Source: Alphaproteobacteria bacterium (GTDB lineage: Bacteria; Pseudomonadota; Alphaproteobacteria; Micavibrionales; UBA2020). Taken from it: 64,000 nucleotides of DNA. How positions within the stretch are numbered: the first letter of the stretch is position 1; each line of letters starts with the position of its first letter. The notes below the pieces were generated by a model. It was not told the origin of the DNA. It ran no database searches and saw only the letters and a list, made by a program, of their open reading frames with translations. Below are positions 4,846 to 57,862 of this stretch, in pieces. The position numbers and the translations under genes were made by a program. The DNA lies in assembly GCA_025934695.1 (NCBI GenBank), contig JAICWS010000001.1:835301-899300 (forward strand), given 5' to 3'.

Positions 4846-6556
4846 CGCGGCGGCGCTCCCCGCGGCGGCGGCCAACACCGCGCCCGCGAAGGACATTCCG
4901 GTGACCAGCGAAGTCCGCGACGTGACGGTCTATAGCGACTCCGCGCAGGTCACGCGCGTCGCGGAGGTCGATATCCCCGCGGGCGCCCACAATGTCGTCT
5001 TCACCGGGCTTCCCCTAACCCTGGCGCCGGATTCCCTGCGCGTCGAGGCGACGGCGGGCGCCGACCTCGCGCTGGGCGCGATCGTCAGCAAAAAGGAAAC
5101 GCCCGCCGCGCCCGTCCCCGTCGTGGACACCGCAAAGCAAAAGGAAGTAAACGCGCGCATCGCGGCGCTGGAGGACCAGGTCTCCCTGATCGAGGCGGAA
5201 AAAGAAGCCCTCGACTCGCGAAAGACGTTCCTGTCGACTCTCGGCCAGCAGGCGACGGCGCAGACAAAAGCGGCGATTGCCCAGTATGACCTGAAGCCCG
5301 ACCAATGGACGAACGCCTCGCAGGCGGTTTACACCGGCATGGCGGAGGTCCTGAAAGCTTCGGTGCAGGACGATATCAAGCTGCGCGGGCTGCAGGACCA
5401 GATCGCCGCCGCGAAGGCGGAGGTCGTCGAACGTTTGCCCGAAGCGCAACCGCCCAGCTGGACTGCCGAGGTGCCGCTCGACGCCAAAGCCGCCACGCAT
5501 GCGACCATCTCCTTGAGTTACCGCGTCTCGAACGCGGGTTGGAAGCCGCTCTATGACGCGCGGCTCGACGGCCGCGGCAAGGGGTCGCTGACGCTGACGC
5601 AATACGGCGATGTCCAGCAGACGACAGGCGAAGACTGGAACGGCGTTTCCTTGACACTGTCGACGACCCAGCCGCAGCGCCTTACCGCGCCCCAGCAGCT
5701 GGCGCCGATGTGGGTAGACGCGTTCAAGCCGAGCAGCGGTGGCATCTCGCCCGCTGCTCTCGCAATCGATTCGGTCACCACTTTCGACGGCGGCGGGACC
5801 GCCATGACTTTCCGGTCCATGTCTTCGAACATCGCCACGGCAAAGCCGCCGAGCGCGCAGGACCAGGCGGAAGCGTATAACAAGCGTGCCGCATCCTTCG
5901 TGACCGCGCAGGCGAACACGACGAAGTTCACGAGCGAATACAAGGTTCCGGGCCCGGCCAGCGTGCCCGCGGACGGTACCGACACGAAACTGATGGTCGG
6001 CAACTTCGACGCCGAGACAAGGATCGGCGTCGAGGTCGTCCCGCAGCAAAGCACCAACGCCTATATCGTCGCGCATGCGAAGCTGAAGGGCGATGCCCCG
6101 ACACTGGGTGGAAATGTCGACTTGTTCCGCGACAACGCCTTCATCGGCGAATCCACGCTGCCGATGCTGCGTCCAGGCGAGGAAACGGCGCTGTATTTCG
6201 GCATCGACGATGCGGTTTCGGTGACGCGCTCCAAGCTCAAGGACGAGCAGGATGTCGCCGGCGTCCTCAATCAGACCACGGTGCTGGAACGGCGCTTCCT
6301 TACCAAAATCCAGAATCTGCACAAGTCTCCCGTCGAGCTGACGGTGACGGAGGCCGTGCCCGCCCCGCGCGACGCGAAGGTGACGGTCGACATCTCGCCT
6401 GATACGACGGCCGGCTATGCGAAGGACGTCGACCATGATCAGGGCAAGAACCAATGGGCCTTCACGCTGCAGCCCGAGGAGGCGAAGGAGATCACGCTCG
6501 GCTGGAAAGTCAGCTGGCCGTCGGACGAGACGCTGAGCGGCGTTCCCAATATGTGA
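4802..6556 (+). CDS. DUF4139/MuiA-family exported protein
   Basis: The 584-aa product has a probable signal peptide ending near residue 24 (LPAAAANTAPA). A DUF4140-like N-terminal domain follows (VRDVTVYSDSAQVTRVAEV), then a coiled-coil stretch (about residues 115-145 and 195-215), then a large DUF4139 beta-rich domain (LSYRVSNAGWKPLYDARL and beyond). Related proteins are annotated mucoidy inhibitor MuiA, but the molecular role is not established. It should be periplasmic or surface associated. AAGGAG at 4789-4794 supports the start. Confidence 0.8.
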   Translation: MKRFLTSMMICAAIDAAALPAAAANTAPAKDIPVTSEVRDVTVYSDSAQVTRVAEVDIPAGAHNVVFTGLPLTLAPDSLRVEATAGADLALGAIVSKKETPAAPVPVVDTAKQKEVNARIAALEDQVSLIEAEKEALDSRKTFLSTLGQQATAQTKAAIAQYDLKPDQWTNASQAVYTGMAEVLKASVQDDIKLRGLQDQIAAAKAEVVERLPEAQPPSWTAEVPLDAKAATHATISLSYRVSNAGWKPLYDARLDGRGKGSLTLTQYGDVQQTTGEDWNGVSLTLSTTQPQRLTAPQQLAPMWVDAFKPSSGGISPAALAIDSVTTFDGGGTAMTFRSMSSNIATAKPPSAQDQAEAYNKRAASFVTAQANTTKFTSEYKVPGPASVPADGTDTKLMVGNFDAETRIGVEVVPQQSTNAYIVAHAKLKGDAPTLGGNVDLFRDNAFIGESTLPMLRPGEETALYFGIDDAVSVTRSKLKDEQDVAGVLNQTTVLERRFLTKIQNLHKSPVELTVTEAVPAPRDAKVTVDISPDTTAGYAKDVDHDQGKNQWAFTLQPEEAKEITLGWKVSWPSDETLSGVPNM

Positions 6557-6565
6557 GGGAGAAGA

Positions 6566-7264
6566 TCAGGCGCGCACGAGGTCGCGGAAGCGGACGATCG
6601 CCTCGAGTTCGGATTTGATGTGATCGAGCCGCTTGCGCGCCAGATTGTCTTCGCCCCATGTTTCGAGCTGGTAGATTTCGTCGACGCAGGCGGCTTCATA
6701 AGCGCCGGCCGCATCAAGATAGCCGTCCATCAGCGCGAGCGCGATGACGACGGAGCCGCAGACGGCGGTCGCGGATTGGACGACGGTGAAATCTTCGGCG
6801 CTTAAACCCGTGATAAGCCTGCTCAGCGTCTCAAGCGATTCCGGCGGCTGGTTGTGGTACCGGATACCCGAAATATGCTCGAGCCGTACGCCATGCTCGC
6901 GCTCCAGCCATTGCAGCAGCGGCAGCCAGTGTTGTTCCTGCCGCTTCACGAGGTCGGGCGGCGTCGCGGCAAAATAGCAGACGAGGTCGGAGGCGCCGTA
7001 TTTCAAAATCTCGACGTTCATCGCCGCGCGGTCGGCGCCTTTGACCTTGTCGGCCATGGTGGTAGCCAGCTGCATGAGCGGCATGGAGGATGGGACGATA
7101 TCGGTCCCCTGCGCCTGCCATTCGTTGGCGATGGCCTCGGCCAGGGGTTGCGACTGCAAGATCAGATGATGCTGCATGACGGTCTTGATGGGCTTGCCAT
7201 CGAGCCGCACGACGAAACCGCCCGGCGCGGTTCCCGCTTCCGCCGATTTGTAAAAGCGCTTCAT
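6566..7264 (-). CDS. ATP12-family F1-ATPase assembly chaperone
   Basis: This 232-aa protein matches the ATP12 family, whose mitochondrial members hold the F1 alpha subunit during ATP synthase assembly; the family is typical of alphaproteobacteria. Recognisable parts are MKRFYKSAEAG...GFVVRLDGKPIKT at the N-terminus, LAEAIANEWQAQG, then the LVCYFA and QEQHWLPLLQW region and the C-terminal ALMDGYLDAAGAYEAACVDE helix. It overlaps the AsmA-like gene by four bases (ATGA) and is the last gene of the rarA-crcB-rluC string. Confidence 0.9.
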   Translation of the reverse strand: MKRFYKSAEAGTAPGGFVVRLDGKPIKTVMQHHLILQSQPLAEAIANEWQAQGTDIVPSSMPLMQLATTMADKVKGADRAAMNVEILKYGASDLVCYFAATPPDLVKRQEQHWLPLLQWLEREHGVRLEHISGIRYHNQPPESLETLSRLITGLSAEDFTVVQSATAVCGSVVIALALMDGYLDAAGAYEAACVDEIYQLETWGEDNLARKRLDHIKSELEAIVRFRDLVRA

Positions 7265-19410: not shown

Positions 19411-19505
19411 CACTCCGGCGAAAGCCGGAGTCCAGTTCATTTAACTTCTATCTCAAAATTCATGAGATAGAAGTTGTATAAACTGGACCCCGATTTTCAT
19501 CTGGT
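19411..19505. repeat. Composite palindromic repeat element
   Basis: The left arm is CACTCCGGCGAAAGCCGGAGTCCAG and the right arm is CTGGACCCC followed by a decayed hairpin. The core is a perfect 12-bp stem, AACTTCTATCTC and GAGATAGAAGTT (19443-19475). It sits between two convergent genes and may help end both transcripts. Confidence 0.7.
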
Positions 19506-19519
19506 GGTTCTGCCACCCT

Positions 19520-20407
19520 TTACGGCGCCGGCGGCTTGGGTGCGGGCGGCGGCTGGGCGGCCTTTTCGGCGGGAGATTTGTTCGCTGCGGCCAGCTTCGC
19601 CTTCCAGTCCTCTTGCTCGCTGAGAGCTTGGCGGACCTGTTTCAGGTTCTCGTCCAGCTTCTGCGCCATGAGCGCGATCTGCTGCCCCGCGACAACTGCG
19701 GCCTCGGCCGATCCTTCGAGCACGAGGATGCGAGCGGCGAAATCCTGGCGGCGCTGCTTGATGTCGGCGAGCCGCGGCGCGGCGTCGGGACCGGGTTGCT
19801 TCTCCGCTTCGGGAATGTATTTTTCGTCATAGCGGCGCAGCACTTCCTTTCCCGCGCCCAGGAACAAGGCGAGATGGCGCGCCGCCTCGTTGCGGGCGAG
19901 ACCCAGGATATCCGCATCGCCTAAGTCCTTTTGCAGCTCCTTGGCCGTCGCCTCGAGCTTGCGCACCAGCGCCAGGGGATCGGTGACTTTCTTCGGCAGC
20001 TTGTCTTCGACCTGGTCGAGCAGCTTCATTTCGGAGGGCGACAGGACGCGCCGGCCCGCGACCCGCATTACTTTCATGAGGTCCTGCCCGAAGCCCGCGA
20101 GGTCGATGCCAGAAATTCCTGCCTCGATGGTGCCGAAGATTTGCTTCGTCTCGGAAGCATGATTGGCAAGCTCGCCGCGCAGGCGGATCATGCCGGTGCC
20201 GATATTGCCCAGGCTCTCCGTCGCCTTACGGCCAAAGGCCGCGATATTCTCGGGATTGCGCGGGTCGCCGTCGATCGACCTCAGCGCGCGGTCCAGCTCC
20301 GCCCGGAACTCGGGCGCGGCTTCCGCGTAGCCGGGAATCGGCGCGGGCGCCACGGGCGGCGGCGCTTTCTTGTTGAACTTGCGTTTGGCGGCGTGTTTCT
20401 TTGTCAT
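19520..20407 (-). CDS. Helical protein, possibly TelA/tellurite-resistance-like
   Basis: 295 aa, predicted almost wholly helical with long coiled-coil-prone stretches (about residues 135-180 and 205-275). A Lys-rich start (MTKKHAAKRKFNKKAPPP) and a Pro/Ala-rich end flank the core. The central pattern (LEATAKELQKDLGDADILGL, YIPEAEK, QRRQDFAARILVLEGSAEAA) resembles the TelA family, whose function is unclear. The match is weak. It overlaps the upstream gene by four bases, so the two are probably one operon. Confidence 0.5.
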   Translation of the reverse strand: MTKKHAAKRKFNKKAPPPVAPAPIPGYAEAAPEFRAELDRALRSIDGDPRNPENIAAFGRKATESLGNIGTGMIRLRGELANHASETKQIFGTIEAGISGIDLAGFGQDLMKVMRVAGRRVLSPSEMKLLDQVEDKLPKKVTDPLALVRKLEATAKELQKDLGDADILGLARNEAARHLALFLGAGKEVLRRYDEKYIPEAEKQPGPDAAPRLADIKQRRQDFAARILVLEGSAEAAVVAGQQIALMAQKLDENLKQVRQALSEQEDWKAKLAAANKSPAEKAAQPPPAPKPPAP

Positions 20408-20913
20408 GGCGTGTCTCCTTTTTGTTTTGGCCCGAACAGGGGAAGTCTTTGCGGGGGCCAGAGCTGCTCGCGCGTCCGGCGGTGGATGACGGCCTCATGG
20501 GGCCGCCAACGGGAATTCACGGTGCGGCAGATAGTGCCGTCGATGACGATGCGCGAGTCCTGGTGCGTGTCCTGGTTGTAGAAGCCCTTCAGCTTCACGC
20601 GCTCCTCTTCGCCCATGTCGTAGAACTCGCGCGGCGTCAGCAGCCGCTCGCCGAAGAAGTAAGTCGGGCTGAAGTTATGCGCCCTGCGCACCAGCGCCGC
20701 GTCATCGTACTTGCGGCCCCTCTTCACGTCGCGGTCGAAGAAACAGAACGACGTGGCATGATCGGGGATGTCGAGCATTTTGATGTCCCTGCCCGTCACT
20801 TCGGCGACGCGCGGTTTTACCGCGCCGTCGAACGTGAAAAGGACGTAGGTCTTCGTCGCGGGATACCGCCAGCAGCTGGCAAGCAGGTTGAACAGGTCCT
20901 TCAGTCGCACCAT
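20404..20913 (-). CDS. Hypothetical protein preceded by the conserved leader
   Basis: 169 aa, soluble, no recognised family. The N-terminal part looks alpha/beta (KTYVLFTFDGAVKPRVAEV, then IPDHATSFCFFDR), and the C-terminus is basic and rich in Arg, Trp and Pro. It is the first gene of a two-gene unit with the helical protein. The mRNA begins near 21078 with a leader (20960-21080) shared with the genes at 45748 and 47030, so all three are probably under the same control. Confidence 0.6.
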   Translation of the reverse strand: MVRLKDLFNLLASCWRYPATKTYVLFTFDGAVKPRVAEVTGRDIKMLDIPDHATSFCFFDRDVKRGRKYDDAALVRRAHNFSPTYFFGERLLTPREFYDMGEEERVKLKGFYNQDTHQDSRIVIDGTICRTVNSRWRPHEAVIHRRTREQLWPPQRLPLFGPKQKGDTP

Positions 20914-20959: not shown

Positions 20960-21080
20960 TTGGGAAACGCAAAACAGCCGCGAACAAAAACTCGTCGGCC
21001 GTTTTTGCAGGTTGCGCCTGATACCGGCTCCCCGCGAAACAGGGATAAAATCGGCGAGCCGTGGTGATGCGCATTGCGTC
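20960..21080 (-). ncRNA. Conserved structured leader, copy 1
   Basis: Read on the minus strand from 21080: GACGCAATGCGCA, CACCACGGC, CCGATTT, GTTTCGCG, GAGCCGG, then CCTGCAAAAACGGCC (20996-21011) and GGCTGTTTTGCG near 20965-20979. The same blocks in the same order occur at 45562-45675 and 46862-46978. ACGGCC and GGCTGT can pair (one G-U), closing a loop of about 20 bases. Function unknown. Confidence 0.65.
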
Positions 21081-21084
21081 AGTT

Positions 21085-21113
21085 CTTGTAGCAGGGCGGT
21101 CGGGTTATGTCAA
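21085..21113 (-). promoter_or_regulatory. TTGACATAA-type promoter of leader copy 1
   Basis: On the minus strand TTGACA (21108-21113), 17 bases, TACAAG (21085-21090). Predicted transcription start is near 21078, exactly where the conserved leader begins. Confidence 0.55.
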
Positions 21114-36513: not shown

Positions 36514-36611
36514 CCGGAAGAGGCTGGGCGGGCGAATGTCTCGCTAACCCGGCCAGGGCCGAAAGGCAGCAACCGTACCGAGTTTCATCCGGGTCGTTCA
36601 GTCTCTTCCAC
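36514..36611 (+). ncRNA. ffs: Small SRP RNA (4.5S RNA)
   Basis: The conserved SRP domain IV is present: CCAGGGCCGAAAGGCAGCAA (36553-36572), with CCGTACCGAG after it. The flanks pair to form the long hairpin: GGAAGAGGCTG (36516-36526) with CAGTCTCTTCC (36599-36609), and CGGG/CCCG-type pairs inside. It binds Ffh for co-translational membrane targeting. Ends are approximate. Confidence 0.9.
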
Positions 36612-36763
36612 TCAATTTCCCCCAGTGACCCCGGACGTTTATAGTGTTCGCGCGCAAAGCGCGGCGGGTCGTTCAGTCTCTTCCACTCAATTTCCTCCAG
36701 TGACCTCGGACGTTTATAGTGTTCGCGCGCAAAGCGCGGCGGGTCGTTCAGTGTCTTCCACCC
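36591..36763 (+). repeat. 75-bp tandem repeat containing the SRP RNA 3' arm
   Basis: Units start at 36591, 36666 and 36741 with GGGTCGTTCAGTCTCTTCCA. The first two units are 75 bases and differ at two positions; the third diverges after about 22 bases. The repeat begins inside the SRP RNA stem, so its 3' arm exists in three copies. Beyond it, to the gene at 37040, lie further hairpins (CCACCC/GGGTGG near 36768; GTCCGCC/GGCGGAC near 36841-36875) and no gene. Confidence 0.85.
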
Positions 36764-41406: not shown

Positions 41407-41424
41407 ATGCCGTGGAAATATTAT

Positions 41425-41453
41425 TTGACATAATATTAATGCTTTGATAAAGT
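41425..41453 (+). promoter_or_regulatory. TTGACATAATAT-type promoter
   Basis: TTGACA (41425-41430), 17 bases, TAAAGT (41448-41453). Same extended -35 as the promoter at 45528. Confidence 0.45.
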
Positions 41454-41463
41454 AATGTCTTAA

Positions 41464-41518
41464 AACGCAAGCGCACTCACTACGGCAGTCGGTTTTAATA
41501 GTTTCTCGCCTGTCCGGT
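41464..41518 (+). ncRNA. Conserved structured leader, partial copy
   Basis: The first half of the leader family is recognisable: ACGCAAGCGCA, CACTACGGC, AGTCGGTTTT, GTTTCTCGCC and GTCCGG. The second half (GCAAAAACGGCC ... GGCTGTT) is not. It begins at the predicted transcription start and precedes the gene at 41598. Confidence 0.45.
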
Positions 41519-41597
41519 TTTTCGCTTCGCCAAAACGACAATGACCAAACGACAATGAATGGGTGTGTTCAACCTTTGAACTGGAGGAAGAACGCGC

Positions 41598-42155
41598 ATG
41601 CCTGACGACATTCGATCACCCCGGACCTTCTTCAACAAGCTGATGGGCATCACCGTCATTCCCCTGCCCAACGGCGGCGAACAGCGGACCTATCGCGACG
41701 GCACGAAGAAATGGTTCCTCGACGGAAAGCTGCATCGCGAGGACGGCCCCGCCATCGAACAGCCGAACGGCAGCAAGGAATGGTACAAGAACGGCAAGCG
41801 CCACCGCGACGGCGGACCTGCCGTCGAATGGTTCGACGGATCGAAGGCATGGTATCGAAATGGCGTTCTGCACCGCGATGACGGCGGCCCCGCCTACGAA
41901 AGACCGGATGGCCGCAAGGAATGGCTGCGCAATGGCAAATGGGACCGCGCCGACGGCCCTGCCCTTATCTTCGGCAATGGCAGCGAGGAATGGTATAAGA
42001 ACGGGAAGCTGCACCGCACCGACGGTCCGGCGCAGATCCTCCTCGGCCAAAAGCCGGGATGGTTTATCGAAGGGCGCGAGCTTTCGGAGCGGCAGGTGGC
42101 AGCGATCAAAGCGCGCCTGGCCGCGAAGACGGCAGCGCCGCGTCCAATGGCCTAG
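41598..42155 (+). CDS. Protein with five WYKNGK-LHR-DGPA repeats
   Basis: 185 aa. Residues about 26-150 are five tandem repeats of 23-24 aa with the pattern G-x-K-x-W-Y-x-N-G-K-x-H-R-x-D-G-P-A (for example GSKEWYKNGKRHRDGGPA). Such repeats resemble the beta-hairpin repeats of YwqK/MORN-like proteins and similar repeats in phage proteins. A helical C-terminus follows. There is no signal peptide. Function unknown. GGAGG precedes the ATG, and a partial copy of the conserved leader lies upstream. Confidence 0.7.
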   Translation: MPDDIRSPRTFFNKLMGITVIPLPNGGEQRTYRDGTKKWFLDGKLHREDGPAIEQPNGSKEWYKNGKRHRDGGPAVEWFDGSKAWYRNGVLHRDDGGPAYERPDGRKEWLRNGKWDRADGPALIFGNGSEEWYKNGKLHRTDGPAQILLGQKPGWFIEGRELSERQVAAIKARLAAKTAAPRPMA

Positions 42156-42201
42156 TTCCCATCGATGGAAAGCCAGCCCTTGGCGGACCACACAATTGCA
42201 T

Positions 42202-42231
42202 TTGACATAATTATGTAAAATCTGTTATCCT
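42202..42231 (+). promoter_or_regulatory. TTGACATAATTA-type promoter of cysQ
   Basis: TTGACA (42202-42207), 18 bases, TATCCT (42226-42231). The -35 lies in a palindrome, ACATAATTATGT. Transcription would start near 42238, shortly before cysQ. Confidence 0.5.
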
Positions 42232-45527: not shown

Positions 45528-45556
45528 TTGACATAATATGAATAAGCCGCTATAAT
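45528..45556 (+). promoter_or_regulatory. Consensus promoter of leader copy 2
   Basis: TTGACA (45528-45533), 17 bases, TATAAT (45551-45556), a perfect sigma70 match, with the extended TTGACATAATAT. Confidence 0.75.
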
Positions 45557-45561
45557 CTGCC

Positions 45562-45675
45562 CACGCAAGGCGTCACTACGGCTCGTCGATTTTCATGCTT
45601 GTTTCGCGACAGCCGCCCCTCTTACGCCTCCCGCAAAAACAGCCGAGAACTTAACAATTTCGTTCCTGGCTGTTG
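45562..45675 (+). ncRNA. Conserved structured leader, copy 2
   Basis: Blocks in order: CACGCAAGGCG, CACTACGGC, TCGTCGATTTT, GTTTCGCGAC, AGCCGC, CCGCAAAAACAGCC and CCTGGCTGTT. Helices: CGGC...TCG with CGA...GCCG, and AACAGCC with GGCTGTT. Compared with copy 3, ACAGCC becomes ACGGCC opposite the same GGCTGT, keeping a G-U pair. Confidence 0.7.
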
Positions 45676-45747
45676 CCCGCGCCCGATCTCCTTCGATCTT
45701 TCGCCTGCGCCATCCGGAACTCAACACGCGAGATGAGGAGAACGACC

Positions 45748-46155
45748 ATGCATATCGGAAGTCTGAAGAAGGTCTTTAACGCGGAAGCCAGCCTGAAAGA
45801 CCTAAACGACGGCATCGAAGGCCAGATCGACGCCCTGCGTTCGGACAAGGGCGTCCTGCGCACCATTGCATCGCTAGCGAAGTACCGCTTCAAACTACGC
45901 AAAGCCGCCTCTGACCTGGCCGAGACGCTGAATGTCCGCGTCAACCAAAAGCCGGTGTGGGAGCTGATGAACGAACTTGCCGCCAAAGCCGAAGAGCGAA
46001 AAATTCCTGGCTTCGAGCGGCTAAAAAAACTGCAGGACTGGAACGGCGCCTTCTGGCTCCAAAAGGAAGTCCTGGACGCCGAAACAGAGAAACTGCAACC
46101 GATCAGCGCCGTCCGCGCCATCAAGCAGCTCGCGCAGAAGATGCCGAAGCCCTGA
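45748..46155 (+). CDS. Hypothetical helical protein preceded by the leader
   Basis: 135 aa, no membrane segment. It is predicted helical throughout, with amphipathic stretches (SLKKVFNAEASLKDLNDGIE, LAAKAEERKIPGFERLKKLQ). No family recognised. The ATG at 45748 has GAGGAG seven bases upstream. The 185-base leader contains copy 2 of the conserved element. Confidence 0.65.
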   Translation: MHIGSLKKVFNAEASLKDLNDGIEGQIDALRSDKGVLRTIASLAKYRFKLRKAASDLAETLNVRVNQKPVWELMNELAAKAEERKIPGFERLKKLQDWNGAFWLQKEVLDAETEKLQPISAVRAIKQLAQKMPKP

Positions 46156-46790: not shown

Positions 46791-46820
46791 ATATTACAAG
46801 CTTTTTCAGTATTATGTCAA
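46791..46820 (-). promoter_or_regulatory. TTGACATAATAC-type promoter
   Basis: On the minus strand TTGACA (46815-46820), 18 bases, TAATAT (46791-46796). With the opposite promoter it forms TGTCAA-N6-TTGACA. Confidence 0.55.
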
Positions 46821-46826
46821 ATTAAA

Positions 46827-46856
46827 TTGACAGGCGACGTCAGAATCGGCTATAAA
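46827..46856 (+). promoter_or_regulatory. Promoter of leader copy 3
   Basis: TTGACA (46827-46832), 18 bases, TATAAA (46851-46856). Its -35 is only six bases from that of the divergent promoter. Confidence 0.6.
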
Positions 46857-46861
46857 TAATT

Positions 46862-46978
46862 CACGCAAGGCGCAGCACCACGGCAGATCGATTTACGTTC
46901 GTTTCGCGACTGCCGGTAAAAAAGGCGCCCCTGCAAAAACGGCCAAGGAAATTCATTTGCCCCTGGCTGTTTTGCGTC
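46862..46978 (+). ncRNA. Conserved structured leader, copy 3
   Basis: Blocks: CACGCAAGGCGCA, CACCACGGC, ATCGATTT, GTTTCGCGAC, TGCCGG, GGCGCCCCTGCAAAAACGGCC and CCTGGCTGTTTTGCG. It starts at the predicted transcription start and ends about 50 bases before the ATG at 47030. Same two helices as copy 2. Confidence 0.7.
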
Positions 46979-47029: not shown

Positions 47030-47488
47030 ATGGCTGACGATGCAACTCCTTCAAATCCGCCCCCGCAAGGAACGACGATTCCGGAACTGATATCAAGTTT
47101 CGCTTTCCTGGGAACAATCGCGGCCCTGGCGGTGGGACTGCCGGCGGCGGGCGCGATGATCCTGGGTACGATGGCCCTGCATGCCAGCGCGGGCGCGCTC
47201 GGGATTGCCGGAGCAGGCGCCGCCGGGCTTTTGGGCGGCGCGGTTCCTTACGCCACCCTCAATCACTTCGGCAAGAAGAAAAATGAAGCCTATGGCACCA
47301 TCGAATTGATCGCCAGCCATTTCGCTCCCGTTGACGAAGCCATCAAATGCATTTTTTCGCCGAAGTATGGGCTGAACAAACTGAAGAACGCTTTCGGGCA
47401 CGCCGCGCCAAAACCGGCGGAAGCCCCTGCCCCGCAATCCGCGCCGCGAGTACCAGCCGCGGCACCCACTGAACCAAAGCCGTCCTGA
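47030..47488 (+). CDS. Small membrane protein, paralogue B
   Basis: 152 aa. Two hydrophobic segments (about residues 18-45 and 50-78) precede FGKKKNEAYGTIE, then AIKCIFSPKYGLNKLKNAF and a Pro/Ala tail, all aligned with the protein at 45067. Unlike that paralogue, it carries the conserved leader (copy 3). GAGGATGT precedes the ATG. Confidence 0.65.
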   Translation: MADDATPSNPPPQGTTIPELISSFAFLGTIAALAVGLPAAGAMILGTMALHASAGALGIAGAGAAGLLGGAVPYATLNHFGKKKNEAYGTIELIASHFAPVDEAIKCIFSPKYGLNKLKNAFGHAAPKPAEAPAPQSAPRVPAAAPTEPKPS

Positions 47489-56103: not shown

Positions 56104-56287
56104 AACGTGTTTCCTTCGTTAAGCCGATAAAACTTTGAAATGGGAGAATGAACCCCAACCCAACCTGGAAGTACTGGAGGGACTTGATTTGGCGGAGCCC
56201 ACCACATGACTGCCGCGAAGTCCCGGTAAGAATTTCGTTTAGTGCCGTATTCCCGTTTAGTGCCGTAGCCCCTTGTCCTCGTCCGCT

Positions 56288-56392
56288 CCACACCGGCGAA
56301 AGCCGGTGTCCATTCCCCGCCGAAAGGCGGTATTTTATAAAGGCGCTTCGCGCGTCTGGATCCCGGCTGTCGCCGGGATGGGCTTTGGTAGA
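56288..56392. repeat. Composite palindromic repeat element
   Basis: Arms CACACCGGCGAAAGCCGGTG and ATCCCGGCTGTCGCCGGGAT; core CCCCGCCGAAAGGCGG, TTTTATAAAGGCGCTTCGCG. It is the reverse complement of the element at 57755 with only a few changes. It sits in the rplL-rpoB gap. Confidence 0.8.
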
Positions 56393-57690: not shown

Positions 57691-57754
57691 GACTTGGCCC
57701 GAAGGCCGCCTCCCAAATTTCTGTTAGTTCAAGCCGCCCTTTTCCCCTTACAGA

Positions 57755-57847
57755 CCATCCCGGCGAAAGCCGGGATCCAGCGCGCGAAGCGCCTTTATAA
57801 ATGCCGCCTTGCGGCGGGGTCTGGACCCCGGCTTTCGCCGGGGTGGG
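57755..57847. repeat. Composite palindromic repeat element
   Basis: Arms CATCCCGGCGAAAGCCGGGAT and CCCCGGCTTTCGCCGGGG; core GCGCGAAGCGCC, TTTATAAATGCCGCCTTGCG. It lies in the rplA-rplJ gap, 15 bases after the rplA stop. Confidence 0.85.
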
Positions 57848-57862
57848 GCAAGCGGAGCTGCT

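Follow-up and report, generated by a model that had tools for sequence, protein, structure and literature searches.

Cyclic di-GMP riboswitches can occupy many sites in a single genome, ahead of genes that are unrelated to one another. The RNA leader described here is like them in its many copies and in the unrelated genes behind these; unlike them, it matched no Rfam family in the stretches that were scanned. In the fluoride (crcB) riboswitch, as set out in PMC11077080, one pseudoknot strand serves at the same time as the foot of the terminator hairpin, the ligand prevents its displacement by the terminator, and the outer pair of the pseudoknot, variable or a wobble, matters. By comparison, the present leader is alike in that a strand of its predicted pseudoknot doubles as the base of a hairpin within a transcribed leader; it differs in its stems and loop letters, in having targets that are mostly orphan proteins and in the 37 copies curated in one genome. 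The ZTP (pfl) riboswitch is described, in PMC10085676, as a helix-junction-helix with a pseudoknot that the terminator disrupts by strand displacement, making an ON switch. Our proposed scheme likewise combines a pseudoknot with a competing hairpin, but the ZTP aptamer, as portrayed there, has a separate short 3' stem-loop, unlike our leader. The Rfam covariance models of the fluoride and ZTP riboswitches found no match in the stretches that were scanned. Dozens of copies per genome also characterize the 'mobile/repeat sequence candidates' treated in PMC11109978, from which the leader differs in its near-fixed orientation to promoter and gene and in the covariation of several of its stems. The open-access (PMC) literature was searched for a motif of this kind in the Micavibrio-like lineage, and no paper describing one was found.

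The window, that is, the whole stretch of 64,000 nucleotides that was analysed (C3:835301-899300; positions below without a contig name refer to it), belongs to a genome of 4.13 Mb in 7 contigs. The leader from which the analysis set out lies on its minus strand, at 20968-21079, and scores 108.7 bits with the first of three covariance models (R1) and, over 21079-20998, 79.6 bits with the third (R3); it is a training sequence of both. The initial annotation had described a full copy of an element recurring in the window, following a promoter and preceding an uncharacterized gene, and this is what one finds. Every motif that it named can be read, letter for letter, from the minus strand: GACGCAATGCGCA (from 21080), next CACCACGGC, CCGATTT, GTTTCGCG, GCCGG, CCTGCAAAAACGGCC (21011-20997) and GGCTGTTTTGCG. 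A TTGACATAA promoter precedes the leader, with its -35 box TTGACA at 21108-21113 and a weak -10 box, TACAAG (4/6), at 21085-21090 across a 17-nt spacer, both read from the sequence on the minus strand; a consensus scanner run on this leader called neither a promoter (including the TACAAG -10) nor a terminator. Transcription probably starts at about 21079. The gene behind it (20404-20913, minus strand; ATG at 20913, GGAG at 20921-20918) encodes 169 amino acids and has homologues in related genomes; its product has no Pfam match.

The predicted minimum free energy (MFE) of this leader is -47 kcal/mol (z -3.5), and three stems can be placed on it, all on the minus strand. The 5' strand of P1 lies at 21069-21077 and its partner at about 21017-21007 (MFE fold and P1 covariation). 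The 5' strand of P2, CGGCTC with an inner CCG, lies at 21052-21061 and pairs with about 21034-21025 (MFE fold and alignment). By alignment, UGUUU in the P2 loop, at 21037-21041, would be one strand of a pseudoknot, and AAACG, at 21000-21004 just past P1, its possible partner. The same AAACG is, by the alignment and the MFE fold, the base of the 5' arm of the P3 hairpin, AAAACGGCC...GGCTGTTTT, at 20971-21005, which is placed by the MFE fold and by arm matching across non-canonical copies.

Three further copies lie in the window, all on the plus strand. The second, at 45563-45679 (TTGACA 45528-45533, TATAAT 45551-45556), precedes a gene that starts at 45748, and the third, at 46863-46976 (TTGACA 46827-46832, TATAAA 46851-46856), precedes the gene at 47030-47488; both are placed by alignment and by R3. 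That the copy at 21 kb is a full one on the opposite strand from these two is borne out; the separation of 20 kb initially given for them is not, since they lie about 24.5-26 kb away. The three full copies score 76-80 bits with R3, all being among its 15 training sequences, and are 69-73% identical in their cores; promoter and leader align, and the sequences then diverge. Allowing three mismatches, a short P2-loop pattern matches the window once, at the 21 kb copy, against 0.01 matches expected by chance. The fourth copy, at 41465-41539, scores 27.3 bits (E 0.00018) with R3, outside whose training set it stands; it is the weakest of the four. A P3 hairpin was sought in it and not found, and its fold is no more stable than those of shuffled sequences (z +1.3). 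A TTTGACATAAT promoter (41424-41434) precedes it and a MORN-like gene (41598-42155) follows, with four repeats, spaced 69-72 nt apart at 41739-42032, that code for MORN-like units (YKNGKLHRTDGPA). A scan of the window with Rfam 15 at the gathering thresholds gave no match to a leader and a single row, the SRP RNA. The window also holds repeats of other kinds: two 75-nt tandem copies, 97% identical, at 36590-36739, starting within the 3' end of the SRP RNA gene (36517-36611), and intergenic REP-like inverted repeats with CCGGCGAAAGCCGG-like cores at 19420-19498, 56285-56384 and 57752-57849.

The initial suggestion that local duplication does not explain these copies holds up well. The flanks of the three full copies in the window look unrelated, the stems of the leader's copies differ by compensatory changes, and in the genome as a whole the leader was curated at 37 distinct places (at least 37), far more than initially described, which are spread over six of the seven contigs (C1, C2, C3, C5, C6 and C7); 24 of them are on C3 and four, as already noted, in the window. 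In this genome the R1 model, trained on six copies, yielded 47 rows at E<=10, of which 29 were kept, one (L046) was dropped as the opposite strand of L048, and 17 weak ones were left, four of these being recovered through a second model. That model (R2), from 15 type II and type III cores, gave 33 rows at E<=1, with 8 new copies kept, and R3, from 15 type I cores, gave 35 rows at E<=1. The count of 37 leaves out two weak R2 rows (C2:900 and C3:554333) and one R3 row (C3:1167591). Scanned across the genome, the short P2-loop pattern occurs at 12 places, 9 of them leaders; the other three (L009, L015 and L016) were rejected for want of promoter and stems.

By the sequence that follows P1, the copies fall into type I (GCAAAAAC), type II (GCUGAAAC) and type III (GCUAAAAC); thirteen type I copies of this genome are 59-89% identical in pairwise comparison. 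About six more divergent leaders (type IV: L127, L138, L145, L152, L154 and L155) were recognized by eye in a tally of the first 30 of 91 TTTGACATAAT sites, which comprised 3 curated copies and, among the other 27 sites, these approximately six. The type IV leaders were missed by the models; some have GGUUUU...GGUUUCACG in the P2 loop and a GCAAAACAACC-type P3. Twenty-eight loci were also searched against Rfam at E<=5 and E<=2, which gave ten rows, all outside leaders, two of them just upstream of a relative's leader (L120; E 0.22 and 0.27). At least 25 of the 37 copies lie within the stretches scanned with Rfam.

The association with a promoter is close. A perfect TTGACA stands ahead of 34 of the 37 copies, where chance would place one in 0.4% of 30-position stretches, and in 30 of the 37 the element starts 5-7 nt past the -10 box; promoter sequence is absent from all three models. 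The near-fixed distance to the -10 box puts the beginning of the element at about the start of transcription, so that it is most simply an RNA and not an operator. The extended -35 sequence TTTGACATAAT has 91 exact sites in the genome against 1 for its reversed control, and most of the 30 sites examined show no visible leader, which makes the leader look like a module joined to some members of a larger group of promoters. Two such sites are in the window: at 42201-42211 (plus strand), without a leader and with the ATG of an ORF at about 42260, and at 46811-46821 (minus strand), with no leader call, upstream of the ORF at 46737-46219. Behind several of the 30 sites, leader present or absent, are genes for ankyrin-repeat or orphan proteins.

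Folding of ten single copies by thermodynamics, with no alignment, gives nested stems like P1 and P2 in 10 of 10 and P3 in 9 of 10, with MFE values from -14 to -47.5 kcal/mol and z scores from -5.3 to +1.3 (weak in L038, -0.9, and L045, -0.3). The stated structure, pseudoknot included, was then examined on alignments of 15 type I cores (A7) and of 15 type II and III cores (A6), in which 92.3% and 85.7%, respectively, of the cells are paired; sliding the partners by 1-3 columns lowers pairing to 25-53%. Ten pairs are changed on both sides in A7 and 12 in A6. These include 6 of 8 P1 pairs and 3 of 8 P2 pairs in A7, and 6 of 7 and 5 of 8 in A6. The covariation scores, 0.264 (A7) and 0.234 (A6), were equalled in 0 of 500 shuffles of either alignment, controls that do not jointly account for relatedness and for the choice of structure on the same sequences. 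The count of further pair types was no better than in shuffled alignments for A7 (267/500 as high); for A6, 11/500 were as high. Compensatory changes thus support P1 and P2, with P1 carrying most of the evidence, as in the type II variants GCUGGGC/GCCCAGC, GUCACGC/GCGUGAC and GUCGAAC/GUUUGAC; in type III the middle of P1 is unpaired. The loop letters are more conserved than most letters of the stems.

The pseudoknot is suggested by the complementarity of xGUUU in the P2 loop to AAACy just past P1. Its core, GUUU/AAAC, hardly varies, except that in L033 both strands are changed, to GCUU with AAGC. The outer pair of type I copies is UA in 6, CG in 5 and UG in 4, and hence standard in 15 of 15; two of the five CG pairs belong to L026 and L029, in which the loop is altered and the next pair broken. 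(In these two, GCCUUU replaces GUUU in the P2 loop, and AAA(C/U)GGC could pair with it across one bulge, so that a shifted pseudoknot possibly forms there.) In type II, all six positions are paired in 9 of 9 sequences, whereas types III and IV mismatch at the outer pair. Over all subtypes, the outer pair is formed in 36 of 53 copies, where shuffling gives 31.7 (58 of 5000 shuffles do as well), a rough figure from an automatic procedure that found no loop in 5 of 58 copies and assigned a wrong GUUUC to L026 and L042. The pseudoknot probably forms in types I and II, as judged from these letters; support for it is moderate.

P3 has as the base of its 5' arm the same AAACy letters that would pair with the P2 loop. 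Its arms change together (CAGCC/GGCUG, CAUCC/GGAUG, CAACC/GGUUG, CAAUC/GAUUG, CAGCACC/GGUGCUG). The summed fit of 27 non-canonical left arms to their own downstream sequences exceeds that of all 20000 permutations of partners; taken singly, only 2 of these arms fit their own sequence best out of the 58 downstream stretches, and for several (L029, L078, L087, L090, L054 and L110) the own sequence ranks in the worse half. In the MFE folds, at least six bases of the left arm are paired downstream in 28 of the 37 copies of this genome and in 16 of 21 copies of relatives. Arm matching thus supports P3 as a predicted hairpin. What lies at its end is not uniform. In 5 of the 37 copies (L019, L026, L038, L082 and L089) the end of P3 is U-rich (at least 7 U in a 10-nt window), and in another five (L036, L044, L047, L078 and L091), by reading, its right arm overlaps the ribosome-binding site, the 5' UTR being 97-132 nt long and the start codon close behind. 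Most copies, including the one at 21 kb, with its weak U tract (6 U in a 10-nt window at the end of P3), have neither a strong U tract nor a P3 over the ribosome-binding site, and in these other copies, that at 21 kb again included, the start of the gene mostly follows 45-125 nt later. L073, L087 and L090 have no convincing P3, and their 5' UTRs are short too (100-129 nt). Regulation at mixed levels is familiar among riboswitches generally.

A plausible ORF on the same strand follows 35 of the 37 copies, with starts picked by a scoring script with no control set; L030 and L034 are not clear in this respect. Protein-family scans covered the products of 33 of the 37 leader genes (all but L030, L034, L071 and L089) and found no shared function among them: 9 Pfam, 1 PADLOC, 3 NCBIfam and 3 PHROGs families were matched, with 1-2 members each, and none of these family matches was to a folate or purine gene. 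Most leader genes are orphans; ankyrin, LRR-like or MORN-like repeats occur in some. Six of them are paralogues (L035, L043, L044, L045, L089 and L091) with repeats that read as LRR-like; single members match NCBIfam LRR models, and 3 of the 6 have no Pfam match at E<=0.01. L071 is an ankyrin protein, L087 is MORN-like below the cut-off, and the product behind the divergent leader L152 is esterase-like; more ankyrin proteins are encoded where the promoter stands without a leader. A Pfam recheck of ten chosen proteins (six from behind leaders in this genome or G001, one from behind a divergent leader and three with the promoter only) found ankyrin repeats in five and an esterase-like fold in one. 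The leader genes may constitute an accessory set, perhaps, as one step further would have it, one that is related to interactions. A shared N-terminal motif, L[KR]xxF, was considered as a regulon-wide signal and rejected: chosen post hoc, it is found in 11 of 33 products of this genome against 3.1 in shuffles and in 3 of 13 of relatives against 0.9, as is a looser N-terminal pattern, also post hoc, in 16 of 33 against 10.6, but among 27 held-out genes behind the same promoter L[KR]xxF occurs in 2, with 1.8 expected.

The distribution of the leader is narrow. Matches at E<=0.001 were found in 7 of 142 genomes of the order (this one included) and, among 385 genomes drawn from the class, in this one only, in scans with stricter filters that lose weak matches. 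Seven related genomes contributed 21 further copies, each repeated row being counted a single time; one copy is weak (L100 of G003, E 0.056). Seven other candidates there (L053, L055, L065, L099, L101, L105 and L111) had no promoter or no stems and were set aside. The 99% complete G003, a member of the same genus, gave no R1 match at E<=0.1, its one weak copy having been kept through R2. G076, a distant member of the order that belongs to another family, has one copy, L120, in which P1 (GUUACG/CGUAAC), P2 (CAGCAGA/UCUGCUG) and CGUUUC/GAAACG differ in their letters yet are all paired, and the right arm of P3 lies, by reading, over the ribosome-binding site. Four of 20 leader genes of relatives pair one-to-one with leader genes of this genome (L059/L073, L062/L027, L058/L021 and L108/L152). 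A public record, Micavibrio sp. MAG Chal_Metagen_Bin5, and G002, a member of the present genome's genus, have 700 bases around a copy in common, which makes the lineage Micavibrio-like. (NCBI places Micavibrio under Bdellovibrionota.) In G003 and G004, homologues of the gene at 20913 (35% identity) are immediately preceded by a TTGACA promoter, with no leader in between, so that the leader looks like a module that is gained or lost between promoter and gene; at seven further, weak homologue loci, no TTGACA was found at the matching place. A phage origin was considered and set aside: two pattern matches in viral contigs (L124 and L125), at 15-16 bits and with no promoter seen, are chance matches, that of L125 lying inside an ORF (5271-6590) and the stretch of L124 being nearly identical to it; the type II pattern has no matches in viral contigs, and among 11 records from a phage collection the five listed have 34 matching bases at E 0.5. 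A match in Rhizobiales (L018, 17.5 bits, promoter absent) was likewise rejected as a leader.

We take the element, on balance and with sequence as our guide, to be probably a structured leader that acts in cis as an ON switch for the gene behind it through competition between pseudoknot and P3. Its RNA would start at or near the transcription start; xGUUU of the P2 loop would pair with AAACy just after P1 to form the pseudoknot, and with AAACy also the base of P3, pseudoknot and complete P3 would compete. P3 would act as an attenuator, with its U-rich tract, in some copies and as a cover of the ribosome-binding site in others; a small molecule, or possibly a protein or an RNA, would stabilize the pseudoknotted domain, weaken P3 and allow the gene to be expressed. 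The ON direction of the switch is drawn from analogy with the fluoride and ZTP riboswitches. The overlap of pseudoknot and P3 is confined to the lowest 4-6 base pairs of P3 and, given that it is so small, the two may coexist. Two features of riboswitches are present in the sequence, a location in the 5' UTR between promoter and coding region and a covarying aptamer-like fold. That the leader is in particular a riboswitch for a small molecule is less certain than the switch between pseudoknot and P3, and the regulated genes suggest no particular ligand.

The alternative that fares best keeps the leader in cis and changes what it senses. A protein or small RNA would recognize the loop, CGAUUU...GUUUC, as a regulator site and so coordinate many genes. 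A narrow distribution combined with varied targets is what a lineage-specific trans regulator might produce, and conservation of the loop letters above most stem letters points the same way, whereas a loop-tail pairing that persists in types I and II, and the tolerance of inserts in L050 and L052, are aptamer-like; we regard this as possible, if distinctly the less likely course. It is improbable that the element is an RNA thermometer or a plain 5'-stabilizing structure with no specific signal: P3 does cover the ribosome-binding site in a few copies, but conserved unpaired loop letters and loop-tail pairing would be unexpected, and the stabilities of the ten folded copies are spread widely. 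It is rather more improbable still that these are stand-alone small RNAs of about 110 nt, each with promoter and terminator, that merely happen to lie upstream of genes. Promoter and hairpin do bracket a compact RNA, and the U tracts of L026, L038, L082 and L089 are clear; against this stand the same-strand ORFs behind 35 of 37 copies, the five P3 right arms on ribosome-binding sites, the four leader-gene pairs kept across species, and the lack of a strong terminator or of any U tract in most copies. That the copies are a transposable or REP-like DNA repeat carrying a promoter, as their high number and clustering on C3 might suggest, is very unlikely indeed, given their nearly constant spacing and orientation relative to promoter and gene (35 of 37 share the strand of the ORF that follows), their 59-89% identity with compensatory changes, and the promoter without a leader in G003 and G004, which implies that the promoter need not belong to an inserted unit.

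The best reading, then, is of a new, lineage-restricted family of cis-regulatory RNA, unrelated by model to the fluoride and ZTP riboswitches and detected in a single little-studied lineage only, the one to which Micavibrio belongs. To our knowledge, few regulatory RNA families are so abundant within one genome. As natural variants of what would be one switch, its copies show terminator-like platforms next to translational ones, and the family marks out proteins, otherwise uninterpretable, that are candidates for co-regulation. We suggest, tentatively and as something that may well turn out otherwise, that in a predator-related bacterium a hitherto undescribed riboswitch-like class, grown to perhaps 40-50 copies, controls together with the TTTGACATAAT promoter a rapidly evolving arsenal of proteins, either orphans or carriers of repeat domains (ankyrin, LRR-like, MORN-like), in response to a single signal, which might be contact with prey or host. 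The one ligand or regulator of such a family would be a direct handle on what Micavibrio-like bacteria sense.
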